Under the pieces are notes generated by a model. The model was not told where the DNA came from, ran no database searches, and saw only the letters and a list, made by a program, of their open reading frames with translations. The translations under genes were made by a program, and so were the position numbers. A stretch of 64,000 bases of DNA, from contig NZ_KI421517.1 in assembly GCF_000473365.1 (NCBI RefSeq), positions 620,001 through 684,000 of the forward strand. The letters are read 5' to 3'. How positions within the stretch are numbered: position 1 is the stretch's first letter; every line of letters starts with the position of its first letter. This document shows positions 55,697 through 64,000 of this stretch, one piece after another. The stretch is from Adhaeribacter aquaticus DSM 16391. GTDB lineage: Bacteria; Bacteroidota; Bacteroidia; Cytophagales; Hymenobacteraceae.

Positions 55697-56191
55697 ATGA
55701 AAACCTTATTCTTAATGCGTCATGCCAAATCCAGTTGGGATTTTGAAGACCTTAGCGACCACGACCGACCACTAAACAACCGGGGTCGGAAAGATGCGCC
55801 GCTCATGGGCCGGGAACTAGTATCCAGAGAAATAGAAATAGACCTGATTATGTCCAGCTCTGCCGTTAGGGCGCTTACCACCGCAACCCTGGTGGCCAAA
55901 GAATTAGAATATGACGCGGAAAAAATAGCTATTGAGGAAAGCATTTATAAAGCCAACAAGCACGAGCTGCTGGATATTATCAGGAGTATACCTAACCAGT
56001 TTGACAAGGTATTATTACTTGGTCATAATTACTCTATTACCGAAGTGGCCAATTTGATTTCGCCAGAAATAATTGCTGAAATACCAACTGCCGGCGTGGT
56101 GGGCCTTAACTTTACCTGTACTACCTGGCGCGAGATAACTAAAGAAAACAGCACCTTTCTTTTCTTTGATTATCCCAAAAACCATTCTTAA
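55697..56191 (+). CDS. SixA-like histidine phosphatase
   Basis: 164 residues, histidine-phosphatase (phosphoglycerate-mutase-like) fold. The catalytic motif is LFLMRHAKSSWDFEDLSDHDRPL (RHA, as in SixA, instead of RHG), with SSSAVRALTTATLVAKELE and the second histidine in LLLGHNYSITEVA. SixA removes phosphate from histidine phosphotransfer domains; related proteins have other phospho-substrates. It lies 137 nt upstream of ppk1 on the same strand. This neighbourhood is common, and a link to polyphosphate metabolism is possible but unproven. Confidence 0.88.
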   Translation: MKTLFLMRHAKSSWDFEDLSDHDRPLNNRGRKDAPLMGRELVSREIEIDLIMSSSAVRALTTATLVAKELEYDAEKIAIEESIYKANKHELLDIIRSIPNQFDKVLLLGHNYSITEVANLISPEIIAEIPTAGVVGLNFTCTTWREITKENSTFLFFDYPKNHS

Positions 56192-56328: not shown

Positions 56329-58413
56329 ATGGAAAAAGATAAAAAATTTCTAAACCGTGAATTAAGCTGGCTGGCTTTTAACTATAGAGTATTGCAGGAG
56401 GCTAAAGACGCTTCTGTGCCTTTACTGGAACGCATTAAATTCATGGCTATTTTTTCTTCTAATCTGGATGAATATTTTAAGGTACGGGTAGCCACGCTAA
56501 AACGGCTTATTAAACTTAAGAAAAAGACCCGGGAAAAATTAACGGAAGATCCGGCTCAGGAACTGGAACAGGTACTGGAGGAGGTTGCCCGACAGCAGGA
56601 TGAACTCGGAGTAATTTTCCGGACGCAAATTCTGGAAGACCTAAAAAAGCAGCAAATATTTCTGGTAACTGAAAAAGAATTACAGCCTGAACAGGAGGAA
56701 TTTTTAAAAGGTTATTACGAAGAACATATAAAGGACATTCTTGCTCCCGTACTGCTAAACGGCTTAAGTTATTTCTTTTTAAAAGATCAGGTAGAATACT
56801 TGATTATTCGTCTCGTTCAACCACGCCACTCGCATTTAGCGCAAGAGGCATTTGCCTTACTGGAGGTACCGGTAAAAAAACACGGCGGTCGTTTTGTGAA
56901 ACTACCTACGCAAGGCGAAAACCGTTACTTTATGTTTTTGGATGATGTAATCCGTTACTTTTTGCCGCAAGTATTTCCCGATTACATAAGTGCGCAGGCT
57001 TATGCCATAAAAATTTCGCGGGATGCAGAGCTGGATATTGAAGAGGAAGTATCCGGAAATTTAATGGCCAAAATTCAGAAAAGCTTAAAAAAACGAGAAA
57101 CCGGATATCCTGCTCGTTTGCTATTTGATGCAGATACCCCTCATTCTTTATTAAAAATCATTCAGGATAAAACCGGCATAACCTCCGATGAATTAATACC
57201 AGGCAGCAAATACCATAATTTCCGGGATTTTTTTGGTTTTCCTAACTTTAATTTGCCCGATTTAAAATACGAACCGCAACCAACTTTGCCCCATCCGCAA
57301 TTGCGTTTCCATAAAAGTTTGTTAGAGGCTATTCATCACCAGGATTTTTTATTACATTATCCTTACCAGTCCTTTGAGTATGTAATTCGTTTTTTTTCCG
57401 AAGCAGCTGTAGATCCGGCCGTGAAATCTATAAGTGCTACGCTATACCGGGTGGCAGAAAAATCGCAGGTAGCTAAAGCCTTGGTGAAGGCAGCAAAAAA
57501 TGGAAAGATAGTTACGGTGGTAGTAGAATTAAAGGCCCGCTTTGATGAAGAATCTAATATCTATTGGGCTCGCAAATTAGAGAAGGCCGGGGCAACGGTA
57601 ATTTATGGTATTCCGGACCTGAAGGTGCATAGTAAAATAGGTTTAGTAACCCGACAGGAAGGTCAAAAAATGGTAAGTTATGCCTATTTGAGCACCGGCA
57701 ATTTTAATGAAGTTACCTCCTATATATATGCCGATCATGCCATTTTTACCGCTGATACCCGCATTACCAAAGATGTAGAGAAAGTGTTCCAGTTCTTTAC
57801 AGATCGCTTACCTAATAAGCGATTTAAAAACTTATTAGTGGCTCCGTTTAATATGCGGGAAAAATTTACGCAGCTTATAAACGAAGAAATACGAAACGCA
57901 AAAAAAGGCTTACCGGCCTACATGATTTTAAAGATGAATGCCTTACAGGATGAGCGCATGATAATGAAGTTGTACGAAGCCAGCAAAGCCGGCGTACAGG
58001 TAGAACTTATTGTGCGCGGCATCTGCAGCTTAATTCCGGGAATTCCGGGTTTAAGTGATAATATAACGGTACGTAGTGTTATAGATCGGTACCTGGAACA
58101 CGCGCGGGTTTATATTTTCTGTAATAATAATCAGGAACGGCTTTATGTGGCTTCTGCCGATTGGATGACCCGGAACTTAAGCCGCCGGATAGAAGTAGGA
58201 TTTCCGTTGCTAGACCCCAAACTACAACAGGAAGTTAGGGATATGGTAGAGTTTGAAAGAAAGGACAATGTAAAAGCCCGTAACTCCCGCAATATTTATT
58301 TGCGCCGGTCTCAGGAACCTGAGGTAAGATCTCAGTATGCTAAGTACGATTATTTAAAGCAGTTGAACCCCGCGCTCGAAAAGCCATCCGAAAGCGAACC
58401 CAGTAGCAAATAG
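56329..58413 (+). CDS. ppk1: Polyphosphate kinase 1
   Basis: 694 residues, full length. N-terminal domain FLNRELSWLAFNYRVLQEA, head domain, then the two PLD-like catalytic domains. The phosphorylated-histidine region is DLKVHSKIGLVTR, followed by YLSTGNFNEVTSYIYADH and the second catalytic segment ERLYVASADWMTRNLSRRIE. It makes polyphosphate from ATP reversibly and is usually membrane-associated. Preceded by a SixA-like phosphatase gene. Confidence 0.97.
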   Translation: MEKDKKFLNRELSWLAFNYRVLQEAKDASVPLLERIKFMAIFSSNLDEYFKVRVATLKRLIKLKKKTREKLTEDPAQELEQVLEEVARQQDELGVIFRTQILEDLKKQQIFLVTEKELQPEQEEFLKGYYEEHIKDILAPVLLNGLSYFFLKDQVEYLIIRLVQPRHSHLAQEAFALLEVPVKKHGGRFVKLPTQGENRYFMFLDDVIRYFLPQVFPDYISAQAYAIKISRDAELDIEEEVSGNLMAKIQKSLKKRETGYPARLLFDADTPHSLLKIIQDKTGITSDELIPGSKYHNFRDFFGFPNFNLPDLKYEPQPTLPHPQLRFHKSLLEAIHHQDFLLHYPYQSFEYVIRFFSEAAVDPAVKSISATLYRVAEKSQVAKALVKAAKNGKIVTVVVELKARFDEESNIYWARKLEKAGATVIYGIPDLKVHSKIGLVTRQEGQKMVSYAYLSTGNFNEVTSYIYADHAIFTADTRITKDVEKVFQFFTDRLPNKRFKNLLVAPFNMREKFTQLINEEIRNAKKGLPAYMILKMNALQDERMIMKLYEASKAGVQVELIVRGICSLIPGIPGLSDNITVRSVIDRYLEHARVYIFCNNNQERLYVASADWMTRNLSRRIEVGFPLLDPKLQQEVRDMVEFERKDNVKARNSRNIYLRRSQEPEVRSQYAKYDYLKQLNPALEKPSESEPSSK

Positions 58414-59446: not shown

Positions 59447-60511
59447 TTATTGTTTTAGGAATCTTCTTGGCGGCACCAGGAAAACTTCTACTTTAAATAA
59501 TGGCGAACCTTTTAATCGGTTATCAATTAAGGGTTCTCCTCGTTTAGAAAAAAGGAAGCCGTTGTTGCTTTCTTTATCAAATACATCAAAAGAAAAATTT
59601 ACCCGATAGCCTGCTTCTGCTCCAACCCACAAGAAGTCGTATATTTCCCGCTCCCAGCGCACCCGGCCCCTAACTTCCGACCTACGTAACTCCATCGTTT
59701 CCAAATTAGTAAATTTAGGATCTACCACATTTATGTTATAATTGGCACCATCCACAGAGAGTCCGGCAAACCACAAAGATTTTTCGGAGGCGTTATACCT
59801 GATATCAAACCTGGCCGGCAAAATAGATTCTAAGCCCCATTTTGCATTAAAGGTGCGGTTATATAAAAAGGCAGGATAAATACGGCGGCGCCCAAGTACA
59901 TAACCTAATTGAGCTCCCACGCCATAAGACAGCATCGGGCTTTTCTTCCAGCCATACAAAAACTCTACTGTCGTTTTCAGGTAATCCGGCACTGCTACCT
60001 GGTGCGATTCATAATCCCCGTTCAACTCACCTTTAACCCGGAAAATGAAATAATTTCGCTCATTTATAGGCCGTAATACCACCACTTGGCCGCCAAGGCT
60101 TTTTAAATTTTTATCTTCTATGTTATTATAAAATTTATAAGCCGGAGGCTGCGGGTAGTTAAAATTAAATTCTTCAAAAGAATAATCAAAACCAGCAATT
60201 ATCTTTAAATGTGGATTATTAAGGGCCGGCACATAAAACTTTACATTAAATTTATTATTTCGCCGCACATCTCCCTCCCGGTTGCCTATGCTCGGATCCG
60301 GGGAAGTGGACCTTATGCCAAAAGTTGATTGTCGTTCGTAATTAATAACTACTCCCTTGCTCTTGCCCATCCCCTCTACCGATGGGTTAGCAAATTCTTT
60401 TGGAGATACCGGTAATTCGCTTGGATTAGATGTGTCTTGTGCTTTTACCTGTATCTGAAAAAATGTAAAACTCAACAGCACTCCCCAGTAATAAAGCTTA
60501 TTCATTTTCAT
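59447..60511 (-). CDS. Predicted outer-membrane beta-barrel protein (DUF6268-like)
   Basis: 354 residues from the ATG at 60511 (MKMNKLYYW; an ATG two codons on is equally good). The longer frame to 60571 starts with TTG inside the upstream gene and spoils the signal peptide, so it is rejected. MNKLYYWGVLLSFTFFQIQVKAQ is a signal peptide. The mature part has alternating strands such as NKFNVKFYVPAL, HLKIIAGFDYSFEEF, NYFIFRVKGELNG, MLSYGVGAQLGYVLG and EAGYRVNFSFDVFD. This is typical of an outer-membrane barrel; the DUF6268 name is from memory. It follows the giant phosphatase/barrel gene by 43 nt, probably in one operon. Confidence 0.75.
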   Translation of the reverse strand: MKMNKLYYWGVLLSFTFFQIQVKAQDTSNPSELPVSPKEFANPSVEGMGKSKGVVINYERQSTFGIRSTSPDPSIGNREGDVRRNNKFNVKFYVPALNNPHLKIIAGFDYSFEEFNFNYPQPPAYKFYNNIEDKNLKSLGGQVVVLRPINERNYFIFRVKGELNGDYESHQVAVPDYLKTTVEFLYGWKKSPMLSYGVGAQLGYVLGRRRIYPAFLYNRTFNAKWGLESILPARFDIRYNASEKSLWFAGLSVDGANYNINVVDPKFTNLETMELRRSEVRGRVRWEREIYDFLWVGAEAGYRVNFSFDVFDKESNNGFLFSKRGEPLIDNRLKGSPLFKVEVFLVPPRRFLKQ

Positions 60512-60554
60512 AGTTTTATTTAAACCAATAGCATAGATTTTAATGGAATCCTTT

Positions 60555-63500
60555 TTAGAACAGGAAGCCAAAGGTCACGTTAAAAAGTTTTTCGCTTTCT
60601 CCAACGGTATAAGTACCAGAAATTAGTGCTTGTTTAGCTATATCAAACCAGAGACCTCCACCAACTCCCCGATGTAGTCCCTTGAAGGGATTTCTTGAAG
60701 GATCATCATCTGTGAAAACCCGACCGTGATCTACTAATCCTAACACTCCAAAACTGCCAGGAAACAAATAAATATTGTAGTTAGATAGCTTTACCCGCGC
60801 CTCAAAATTAGCATAAAGGGTACTCCGGCCAGCATACCGCGCGATCCGATAACCTCTTAAATTGGTTGTACCACCCAAAGTATTAGCCTGGTAAAAGCGA
60901 TAGTCACCAAAATTATGAGTTCCTCCTATCCGGCCAGCCCAGGTAAGCTGAAACGGGAAGTGCGGTGTAAGGTAAAACCTTACCTCGGAAGCAAATCGGG
61001 TGAAAGACATATTCTCGCCGCCTAACTGACGACTTACATTAGCTTCATTTAACCACCGTATCCCAATTTTAGGATTTATGATATTATCTACTGCCGATAT
61101 ATTCATAAACATACGGGCGCCCAAGTATTTATTTAAATCAAAAGAGGTTGGCTCCGTTTGGGCTATCAGCTCACGGGCAATGGCTCCTGTCTCATTCCTT
61201 TCCACCTGAAACATGTCGAAACTAGGACCAATACCTACTTTTACAAAATGAAAAACATCATAGTTAAGGGTGGCAGAGGCTATATACCGGGAAAACCGTA
61301 CCCTATAATCTTCAATGCGCGATTCATCTGCATCTCTTCTGTTTCCTTGTCCGAAATAGTTAGCCAATAATTGAGGTCCGTTTCGGCTGGCATGTAATTC
61401 TAAATCCCAATCTTTGATAACATCTGTAAATAACCCGTTATACCTAATATTATAGGCGGAGGTAACAAAGGCATAATTTGCTAAAAAAGTATGTTGGGCC
61501 GCAAAAGGTTCTTTCCGGAATTTATGGGTGCGGTAAACAAACCCACCTCCTATATATAAGCGATCATCTATATTATACTGTAAAGAAATTTTTGGACCTA
61601 CATAAGGAATTTTATGTGCGGTACGCTCATACTTATTAACCTCCGGATAATCATCTGTTTTGTTTTTTGTTTCCGGACCAAAATGAAACACGTTGTTTGA
61701 TTCTGTATCATAAACATAAGTGCGCCGCATCAAACCTTTTACAGAAGAATTATCGACAATACTGTCCCGGTCATTCCCACCAATTATCCTTATCAAGGAA
61801 CCTTTATTTGCATTACCAGTTACATTAAATACATCCTTCCCATCAAGCCCATACAGCCTGATCTCTTTTGTTTCCTTTGGATCAAAGGTGCGCCTATACA
61901 AATGCCTGCCTAGCGTGCCGTCCCGCTTAATATTCCGGACATGCACTTCTGTCAAGCCGCCTTCAAGTCGTTTTATTTCAAAATGTTCTCTTTTATCGCT
62001 ACCAGTAACATCAACTATTTTAGAGAGGAAAGTATGATAGTTTGCCGCTAACTCCGGTAAAAGATCGCGACGAGATTTTAATTTAGCCGCAAGTTCCGGA
62101 GCCGACTGTTTATATACCTCTTCCGGGAGTTCCCGCAAGGCTTCTGCTATTACATTATCAGTAACTTTGGCTTTTATATCCTGAGCAATAGCAACCCATT
62201 GCTCTTTCGTAACACTTGAAAGAAAAGTACGGTCATTTGTTAAAGCCGTTAAATTTAGCCCGATATAATCGTTATAGTCATATCCAAAGTTCTGGAAGTT
62301 TCGCACTGCCCACTTACGGGTGGTTAGATACGGAATCAAACCATCGGCTTTAAAAAAGGCTACGTCCCGGTCCTTCGGTACAGGCTCATAAAATCTGCCT
62401 TCTTCCATTTTCCGTTCTGCCCACCGCCACTGACCTTCGTGCCGGTCCCAGTCGCCTATCAGCATATCAAACAACCGGGCCCGGGCAAAACCTTTTTCAT
62501 CTATTACATTGTCGTTGTCGGCTTGCTTTCTTTCCAGTACTTTTTCAGTACCCACTAAATTACGGGCATACCCTAAACTGGCTACATCCTGATGGTCTTC
62601 GTCTGGATTTTCTTCCAGTGTAGCAACGGTGTTTCCTACCCGTGGCAGATACGGACCTAATAAAGGATCATTAGGTATATAAACTAATTTTGGATTTACG
62701 TGAAAAACCCCGGCTGCTTTAGACAACGTAGGCAATACCAGTGATCCGTAGGGGTGCTGAGCTGAGATTTGGTCTTGTAGAATATCACGGGCAAAAGTTT
62801 CCCGCAGGGGCTCAGGTAACACAGCCTCTGGATTTTTATTTATGGAACGTAAGGAGTATTCCCGCCCTTCTTCATTGCGCAAACGCAGCGAAATAGTTTG
62901 TTTTCCGCCGCCCATTCTATATGGTTGTAATCCGCCTTTTTCAGTAGTTAAATCTAACAGCGGCATTTTTACCGGGGTACTCCAAATAGAGCGGTAATGC
63001 TCTCCCAACAACACCTTTTTTATAGCCCCGGCCTTATAAGCTGGGTTAGCCGCTACGGTAACAGTACTATCGCTGTAATTTGGCCGACCGGCACGTAAAT
63101 TTATCTGAGGTTCCTGGCCTTTGGCTACTACGGCTCTGGCCTCTTTCTTGTACATAAGGGTTTTATAAAACATTTTCCCCTCGCTGCCATCGCCTACCGG
63201 TTCCCAGAATTCTGCCCAAACCTCTCCATTCTGATAATAATTTACTTTTACATATCCTTTAGCTTCGTGGGCAAAAACAGCTTGTCCACCCGCAGCTATA
63301 TGCTGCGTTTTACATCCGGAACCACTTACAATTGTTGGTACATTATCTACTTTAAAATACTGCAAACCGTGCTCATGGCCGGCAGTATAGGCCACATTAG
63401 GGTATTTCCGGAAAACTCCCATTAATCCCTGAATAAAGGCCTGGTATTTAGGATGAGCTACATCCTGACTGATTCCGCCGTATTTGCGGGCAAAAGGATA

Positions 63501-64000
63501 TATGGACCCAATAATGGGCATTGGCAGATACAAATAATCTTTCAGCATGGTTAGCGGAAAGAAATGATCTTTTAAGGTAAAATAGCCACCATGGGTACCG
63601 TTGGTAAATAAGGGATGATGGGCCACAACCATTACATGCTTATCGGCATTACGCCCTATTACATCTTCTAACTGGGTCAGTACTTCCGCCTCATCGGTTA
63701 CATCACAATAGTTATTGGCACCGTAGGGACGCTCCTGGTCTTGTAACCACCATTGCGAATCCAGTACAATTAACACTACGTCATCCTGCAAAATCACCTC
63801 AAATGGTCCCGGACATCCCTGATCAGGCACGTAAAAATTACCTCCGTTTACCACGGTAGAATCCCTTAGGTAAGCTTCCACATAAGCTTCCTGCCTGATT
63901 ACCGCTCTCAGGCCACCCGGAGTACCTTGTGCCCAATCGTGGTTGCCCGGAATCATGTATTTTTCGCCCCTATACCCCTTAAAAATATCCAGTTGGGTAT
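60555..64000 (-). CDS. Metallophosphatase / DRH-motif domain / BamA-like barrel fusion (N-terminus cut by window end)
   Basis: Open to the last base of the window; 1133 residues follow the first internal Met and the real start is outside. Three parts. (1) Calcineurin-like metallophosphatase, with MIPGNHDWAQG, VMVVAHHPLFTNGTHGG and YTAGHEHGLQYF as metal-site motifs. (2) A middle region (about 62,050-62,600) with FDMLIGDWDRHEGQWRW and PVPKDRDVAFF, which resembles the catalytic DRH and metal-binding Asp motifs of Fam20C/HipA/PI-kinase-like folds. (3) A C-terminal BamA/Omp85-like barrel from about 61,600 on (RAYVYR-type strands, YFGQGN, GGTTNLRGYR) ending in Phe (FNVTFGFLF). It is probably an outer-membrane protein with a periplasmic or surface enzyme part. 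The kinase idea is inference. Confidence 0.82.
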   Translation of the reverse strand, partial: TQLDIFKGYRGEKYMIPGNHDWAQGTPGGLRAVIRQEAYVEAYLRDSTVVNGGNFYVPDQGCPGPFEVILQDDVVLIVLDSQWWLQDQERPYGANNYCDVTDEAEVLTQLEDVIGRNADKHVMVVAHHPLFTNGTHGGYFTLKDHFFPLTMLKDYLYLPMPIIGSIYPFARKYGGISQDVAHPKYQAFIQGLMGVFRKYPNVAYTAGHEHGLQYFKVDNVPTIVSGSGCKTQHIAAGGQAVFAHEAKGYVKVNYYQNGEVWAEFWEPVGDGSEGKMFYKTLMYKKEARAVVAKGQEPQINLRAGRPNYSDSTVTVAANPAYKAGAIKKVLLGEHYRSIWSTPVKMPLLDLTTEKGGLQPYRMGGGKQTISLRLRNEEGREYSLRSINKNPEAVLPEPLRETFARDILQDQISAQHPYGSLVLPTLSKAAGVFHVNPKLVYIPNDPLLGPYLPRVGNTVATLEENPDEDHQDVASLGYARNLVGTEKVLERKQADNDNVIDEKGFARARLFDMLIGDWDRHEGQWRWAERKMEEGRFYEPVPKDRDVAFFKADGLIPYLTTRKWAVRNFQNFGYDYNDYIGLNLTALTNDRTFLSSVTKEQWVAIAQDIKAKVTDNVIAEALRELPEEVYKQSAPELAAKLKSRRDLLPELAANYHTFLSKIVDVTGSDKREHFEIKRLEGGLTEVHVRNIKRDGTLGRHLYRRTFDPKETKEIRLYGLDGKDVFNVTGNANKGSLIRIIGGNDRDSIVDNSSVKGLMRRTYVYDTESNNVFHFGPETKNKTDDYPEVNKYERTAHKIPYVGPKISLQYNIDDRLYIGGGFVYRTHKFRKEPFAAQHTFLANYAFVTSAYNIRYNGLFTDVIKDWDLELHASRNGPQLLANYFGQGNRRDADESRIEDYRVRFSRYIASATLNYDVFHFVKVGIGPSFDMFQVERNETGAIARELIAQTEPTSFDLNKYLGARMFMNISAVDNIINPKIGIRWLNEANVSRQLGGENMSFTRFASEVRFYLTPHFPFQLTWAGRIGGTHNFGDYRFYQANTLGGTTNLRGYRIARYAGRSTLYANFEARVKLSNYNIYLFPGSFGVLGLVDHGRVFTDDDPSRNPFKGLHRGVGGGLWFDIAKQALISGTYTVGESEKLFNVTFGFLF

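Follow-up and report, generated by a model that had tools for sequence, protein, structure and literature searches.

What does a protein do that joins a metallophosphatase, a kinase-like region and an outer membrane barrel in a single chain? The question is raised by an open reading frame (ORF) at 60555-64000 on the minus strand of a 64,000-nucleotide stretch of the Adhaeribacter aquaticus DSM 16391 genome (contig NZ_KI421517.1, positions 620,001 to 684,000), which we call the window and number from its first nucleotide. The frame runs off the right end of the window. In the genome (5.17 Mb in 4 contigs) the whole gene spans window-equivalent positions 60555-64334 on the minus strand and encodes 1259 amino acids counted from the ATG; its first 334 bases lie outside the window. 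The original prediction of a metallophosphatase, a middle region with DRH and DRD motifs and an Omp85 barrel on one polypeptide is borne out by the complete gene. The protein is probably an outer membrane-anchored extracytoplasmic phospho-enzyme, whose kinase (the writer) and phosphatase (the eraser) would share a stalk at the periplasmic side. This reading is based on the order of the modules, the retention of most active-site residues in both enzyme modules, the export and membrane signals, and a recurrent neighbourhood of PPK1, SixA-like and HD-PycTM genes.

From the N-terminus the protein has a hydrophobic signal followed by a lipobox-like VNAC, a TRAP-like metallophosphatase, a kinase-fold domain, an all-beta spacer and a 16-strand Omp85 barrel. 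These are encoded as follows.

60555..64000, minus strand: in-window part of the whole gene, which continues to 64334; the lipobox-like signal peptide is encoded outside the window
63135..64000, minus strand: predicted TRAP/purple acid phosphatase-like metallophosphatase, residues ~48-400 (PF00149, PDB profile search, motif conservation); residues 1-111 lie beyond the window
62022..62963, minus strand: predicted kinase-fold (PI4K-II/CotH/CtkA/HipA-like) domain, residues 458-771 (AlphaFold2, Foldseek, VIA-align)
61737..62021, minus strand: all-beta spacer domain with a GGxGxD-like stretch, residues 772-866 (DSSP on both models, conserved columns)
60558..61604, minus strand: 16-strand Omp85 barrel with terminal Phe, residues 911-1259 (predicted model, PF01103)
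60846..60863, minus strand: NLRGYR motif of the barrel

Pfam assigns residues 50-255 of the 1259-residue protein to Metallophos (24.8 bits against a cut-off of 21.5) and residues 1077-1244 to Omp85 (PF01103; 25 bits against 24), and an NCBIfam scan gives an extra Omp85 match below its cut-off. Neither scan found a significant family for the region between the two. The motifs noticed earlier are all present, with GNHD at residues 130-133, GHEH at 319-322, GDWDRHEGQW at 627-636, PKDRDVAFF at 653-661, NLRGYR at 1158-1163 and Phe as the final residue. The separation of DRH and DRD, put at about 30 residues, is in fact 25. The middle region has homologues in 112 of the 296 Bacteroidota genomes sampled (phylum judged by named relatives) and in 62 of 140 genera, so the combination of domains is not due to chance.

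The two enzyme modules

We compared a profile of the phosphatase (alignment A4, 29 hand-picked phosphatase regions, each of which matches PF00149) with PDB chains. At E ≤ 0.01 it matches six TRAP/ACP5 purple acid phosphatase sequences, the best with E = 2.1e-12, and the remaining match is the TRAP-like Plasmodium GAP50. The window protein has the metal-ligand signature of TRAP, i.e. GDxG, GDNxY including its Tyr, GNHD, HHP and GHxH. This is mostly kept in 117 sequences, with D55 in 108, D89 in 107, Y92 in 100, N131 and H132 in 102 each, H239 and H240 in 115 each, H320 in 113 and H322 in 105. It differs from TRAP/ACP5 in that the predicted phosphatase is fused to a kinase-fold domain and a barrel.

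Attachment of a PF00149 domain to an Omp85 barrel is already known. Heinz and Lithgow (2014) include among the Omp85 proteins a 'Metallo' subfamily with PF00149, labelled metalloprotease, and in the passages on this subfamily a role in periplasmic quality control or virulence is proposed (PMC4104836). The window protein, with PF00149 N-terminal to an Omp85-type barrel and lacking POTRA domains, has the architecture of this group. The difference is that those passages use the metalloprotease label and mention no kinase domain, whereas the window protein has a TRAP-like phosphatase and a kinase-fold domain. According to that proposal the protein would be an outer membrane metalloprotease serving periplasmic quality control. 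However, PF00149 is the calcineurin-like phosphoesterase family, and the solved structures matched at E 0.01 are only TRAP-type enzymes and GAP50. We therefore reject the metalloprotease reading, which is extremely improbable. The architecture of barrel plus phosphoesterase was recognized but its chemistry was misread in the passages concerned, and the present analysis corrects the published assignment of PF00149-Omp85 proteins (PMC4104836).

The middle region had been placed at about 62,000-62,950 and likened to kinases, and a fold comparison was proposed. AlphaFold2 predicts a two-lobed kinase fold for residues 458-771, corresponding to 62022-62963, with a predicted local distance difference test score (pLDDT) of 91.1. 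The model matches PI4K-II, CotH, CtkA and HipA, and all 50 of the listed entries are kinase folds, which supports the kinase-like reading. The fold is common to these members of the PI3/4K-like branch over ~215-265 residues. The window domain is distinguished from them by a sequence identity of 8-16%, by the lack of a significant Pfam match, and by being exported and fused to an outer membrane barrel. Using hhalign the DRH loop aligns weakly with those of CotH and HipA, and the later Asp with that of CotH. Plain membership of the CotH or HipA families was rejected on the basis of no significant Pfam match and weak profile-profile scores. There is no match to PF08757 (CotH) anywhere in the window genome, and its single HipA_C match is on another contig.

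FAM20C was also suggested as a relative. It has a kinase fold that lies outside the cytoplasm and a DRH motif, but differs in having neither barrel nor phosphatase. Foldseek lists the Golgi casein kinase 4kqb as a weak structural match at E = 0.012. No Fam20C family is present among the 25 of 29 families listed in the family scan of members, and no match to it in sequence was seen. A further candidate came from PADLOC, where part of the kinase region matched two PDC-M03A candidate defence models with E = 0.0024 and 0.0067. No stretch passes alone, and these matches were set aside as too weak.

Conserved residues occupy suitable places for a catalytic-loop Asp, a metal-binding Asp and an N-lobe Lys.

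62835..62837, minus strand: Lys500, candidate nucleotide-binding Lys (alternative Arg496), in 121/121 three-module sequences
62439..62453, minus strand: Asp628-Trp-Asp630-Arg-His632, putative catalytic-loop motif, from conservation; hhalign places Asp630 on the loop Asp of HipA and CotH with weak scores
62364..62372, minus strand: Asp655-Arg-Asp657, putative metal-binding-Asp motif, both Asp in 121/121 three-module sequences; hhalign places Asp655 on the CotH Asp with a weak score

Conservation was measured in 184 distinct sequences that align over 250 residues or more and score no less than 60 bits, a filter that puts short or very divergent relatives outside the counts. They comprise 121 three-module proteins (the window protein included), 41 kinase-barrel proteins and 22 kinases alone. 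The DRH and DRD motifs, whose invariance had been put forward as a check, are close to invariant in the three-module class. K500, D628, D655 and D657 are kept in all 121, as is Arg496, with D521 and H632 in 120, and D630 and R631 in 119. Among the kinase-barrel proteins, several of which are degenerate, the counts are K500 37, D628 39, D630 36, H632 34, D655 37 and D657 35. All 22 kinases alone keep K500, D628, D655 and D657, while D630 is found in 17 and H632 in 19. Since D628 is better kept than D630, both are candidates for the catalytic Asp. Lys500, or alternatively Arg496, would bind the nucleotide.

In the family of the window organism and in Pontibacter, exported standalone kinase-like genes occur as adjacent pairs (L034, L036, L037, L096 and L131, with three copies in L037). 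The DWDR motif is altered to DWSR in one copy and intact in the other or others. FAM20C and FAM20A are a kinase and its pseudokinase partner, and the paired genes are reminiscent of such an arrangement.

Barrel, export and distribution

The spacer, with its GGxGxD-like stretch, is kept in most architectural forms. The segment between kinase and barrel is beta-rich, and in both models DSSP gives no beta-alpha-alpha-beta-beta unit of the POTRA type found in BamA and TamA. The barrel itself has 16 strands and the Omp85 fold in the model, together with a loop motif of the RGY/F type, and thus belongs to the Omp85 superfamily. NLRGYR, which we take to be the loop-6-type motif of Omp85 barrels, has an invariant Gly and nearly invariant Leu and Arg (both) in the 71-row alignment A3. 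For this, 70 rows were taken after a length filter, loci L065, L066, L102, L111, L115, L116, L122 and L124 having been removed by hand. Omp85 barrels have both termini in the periplasm, so that a writer and eraser facing this compartment is the simplest reading. The barrel would keep the protein in the outer membrane with the enzymes on its periplasmic side.

Most members of all three architectures have export or membrane signals. Of 117 forms with the phosphatase, simple patterns class 51 as lipobox-like, 51 as signal-peptidase-I-like and 15 as neither, although this classification is rough and lipoproteins can be recognized by eye among the 15. In forms without the phosphatase, where their starts are not lost at contig ends, inspection by eye shows a signal peptide, a lipobox or a membrane anchor at the N-terminus.

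These signals bear on a different role for the barrel. In patatin-Omp85 (PlpD) an enzyme domain is joined to an Omp85-type barrel (PMC4104836). The window protein shares this plan, but has other enzyme domains and an all-beta spacer before the barrel. It might therefore be a two-in-one secretion device whose barrel puts the enzymes on the cell surface, where they would act on outside substrates and possibly use environmental ATP. The position of the enzyme domains, N-terminal to an Omp85 barrel without POTRA domains, fits with this, as does the PlpD precedent. However, the lipobox-like signal in 51 of the 117 three-module proteins would tether the N-terminus, and ~850 residues would need to cross the membrane. 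We consider secretion rather unlikely.

Three forms recur, i.e. phosphatase-kinase-barrel, kinase-barrel and kinase alone (~425-590 amino acids). The homologue set retains 53 rows after removal of two copies of the gene from the window and of every ORF whose best domain scored <150 bits; alignment A1 uses 45 of the 53, and L111 was left out of alignment A2. On an unrooted FastTree tree of 185 rows, which carries long-branch warnings, the three architecture labels require 13 changes, compared with a mean of 57.7 for shuffled labels. On well-supported branches the three-module label must change at least seven times, which implies repeated gain or loss of the phosphatase. The constant core is the kinase module, which is also found without a phosphatase and whose site is the less variable of the two; the phosphatase is optional. 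Relatives of the kinase region are also present in five plasmid records, where they are either unannotated or called hypothetical protein. At L024 the phosphatase (405 amino acids) and kinase (530 amino acids) are separate neighbouring ORFs. The kinase-barrel gene of L111 (Pontibacter ramchanderi) is split or frameshifted, its two parts being neighbouring ORFs with 422 and 439 amino acids.

Gene neighbourhood and proposed function

Three genes near the window gene recur in the same company elsewhere.

56329..58413, plus strand: PPK1 polyphosphate kinase (TIGR03705, 764 bits), a recurrent neighbour
55697..56191, plus strand: SixA-like histidine phosphatase (PF00300; TIGR00249 with 53 bits, under the cut-off of 74.5), a recurrent neighbour
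64736-65923 (window-equivalent; L002:7737-8924), just right of the window: HD-PycTM protein (Pycsar effector-type membrane domain), a strongly conserved neighbour whose HD domain is below the Pfam cut-off here and above it in L173

We examined 71 barrel-bearing loci from 23 families in stretches of ~9.6-19 kb. They were hand-picked, mostly one or two per genus and up to four (g49), with two from the window genome; L052, which has no kinase match, was left out. PPK1 positions were taken from the fetched loci. HD-PycTM lies near 44 loci in 18 families (in L168 one HD-PycTM ORF carries a weak middle-region match label), PPK1 near 16 loci in 9 families and the SixA-like gene near 14 loci in 8 families. 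Divided by form, HD-PycTM accompanies 30 of the 42 three-module genes and 14 of the 29 genes for kinase-barrel proteins, PPK1 near 10/42 and 6/29, and the SixA-like gene near 5/42 and 9/29. None of the nine standalone-kinase loci has any of the six query neighbours. The same is true of 20 control regions of 18 kb from these genomes, placed by hand at round coordinates rather than drawn at random. Clustering of neighbouring ORFs also places HD-PycTM first (45 loci with L052 included), with a GAF protein at 18, PPK1 at 16 and SixA-like at 14; two clusters of 23 loci each that rank between HD-PycTM and GAF look like antisense artefacts. G166 has two PPK1 matches, and a PPK1 ORF is close to each of the two three-module genes examined there, one on C2 and one on C1.

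HD-PycTM was also sought elsewhere in 12 genomes from the 27 loci that have none nearby, and 11 contain one with E = 1e-37 or better. In four of the 12 it lies beside a second copy (G219) or within ~12 kb (G088, G139 and G143). Among 30 genomes without the kinase, taken from the tops of lists and not at random, HD-PycTM is found in one (G037) at the 1e-37 level, a line set after seeing the data, in 3 at 1e-30 and in 16 at 1e-10; many of the weak matches cover one half of the query. Eight HD-PycTM stretches without the kinase (L274-L281, two from G037) contain SixA-like and PPK1 genes in two cases, SixA-like only in one and neither in five.

The proximity of HD-PycTM, PPK1 and SixA-like genes suggests a protein that responds to phosphate or nucleotide state as its input, with an activity linked to the polyphosphate and nucleotide state of the cell. 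In the proposed mechanism the kinase module would phosphorylate a class of envelope substrate, which could be a lipid, a glycan or an exported protein, and the phosphatase module would dephosphorylate the same class. The phosphoryl donor and the substrate are the weakest step. The periplasm is not known to contain ATP. Given the presence of the kinase-fold domain, in one form or another, in 112 of the 296 genomes, its fusion with a phosphatase and an outer membrane barrel would mean that reversible phosphorylation may occur outside the cytoplasm, where ATP is not expected.

A number of results count against this proposal. PPK1 is not nearby in 55 of the 71 loci, nor HD-PycTM in 27. PPK1 is found in 270 of 296 genomes regardless of the locus, so that it is informative only through its proximity. 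In G286 the kinase is present and HD-PycTM absent, and G037 shows the reverse. Phosphatase ligands are lost in some of the 117 sequences, with D89N in 9, H132K in 8 and D55N in 7. For the kinase fold, the Foldseek TM-scores are low, at best 0.36 by query and 0.54 by target. In 45 members, neither CotH (PF08757; best E = 0.019, 2 members) nor HipA_C (PF07804; best E = 0.19, 2 members) reaches its cut-off, other chance-level families score similarly or better, and the hhalign probabilities are 10% for CotH and 1.5% for HipA. PDB searches with the middle region, as single query and as profile, gave chance-level matches only and no kinase, so the assignment depends on the fold comparison. Asp630 is replaced by Gly in 2 of 121 three-module proteins, by Asn or Glu in 5 of 41 kinase-barrel proteins and by Ser in 5 of 22 kinases alone. 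Lastly, 174 of the 184 sequences have Gln five residues after Asp630 (position +5), where classical kinases have Asn, a further difference from the PI4K-II, CotH, CtkA and HipA kinases.

The Gln, the degenerate relatives and the lack, to our knowledge, of periplasmic ATP would all be explained if the domain were a pseudokinase or sensor, transferring no phosphate but controlling the phosphatase or barrel on binding a nucleotide, polyphosphate or a phospholipid. GAP50, which the TRAP profile also matches, is a non-enzymatic relative of TRAP. Yet Lys500, Asp628, Asp655 and Asp657 are present in every three-module protein, a tighter constraint than on the phosphatase site, and a pseudokinase is not the explanation we expect, although it deserves some weight. 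Alternatively, the kinase fold could catalyse another transfer, e.g. of AMP or glutamate, or could use polyphosphate in place of ATP as donor. Kinase folds with other transfers exist in SelO and SidJ, and the PPK1 neighbourhood fits with this. However, we found no sequence feature pointing to such chemistry and PPK1 is a cytoplasmic enzyme, making this quite unlikely.

Returning to the writer and eraser on the periplasmic side, a speculative extension, to which we give little credence, is an ATP-independent extracytoplasmic phosphorylation cycle at the Bacteroidota outer membrane. Exported polyphosphate, or some other donor than ATP, would serve the kinase-fold module to charge an envelope substrate, which the TRAP-like module of the same polypeptide would reset, while the linked HD-PycTM, SixA-like and PPK1 genes would adjust or signal phosphate status from within the cell.

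In the open-licence literature we found no description of the kinase-fold domain or of the gene neighbourhood, which is no proof of absence; both appear to be undescribed so far. For a domain that lacks a Pfam or NCBIfam match, the analysis supplies a predicted fold, candidates for the active-site residues and a genetic association with polyphosphate metabolism.

Other genes recur at these loci. A GAF-domain protein of ~770-800 amino acids (L160:4769-7081 and relatives) is near 18 loci, of which 17 are three-module. L169 and L170 hold more three-module copies near PPK1, both with Asp630 changed to Gly, and their PPK1 frame is longer than that in L133. A DUF2652 gene adjoins the HD-PycTM gene, and elsewhere genes of the guanylate-cyclase/TPR type are found repeatedly (10 loci), hinting at cyclic-nucleotide signalling. 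The second protein predicted directly downstream of the window gene does exist.

59447..60571, minus strand: DUF6268 protein (PF19783), a neighbour mainly in Hymenobacteraceae

Its real start is likely the internal ATG at about 60511, judged by eye. Relatives are near 19 loci, mostly in Hymenobacteraceae and also at L103, L125, L126 and L128, and the DUF6268 protein is a possible partner of the three-module protein.

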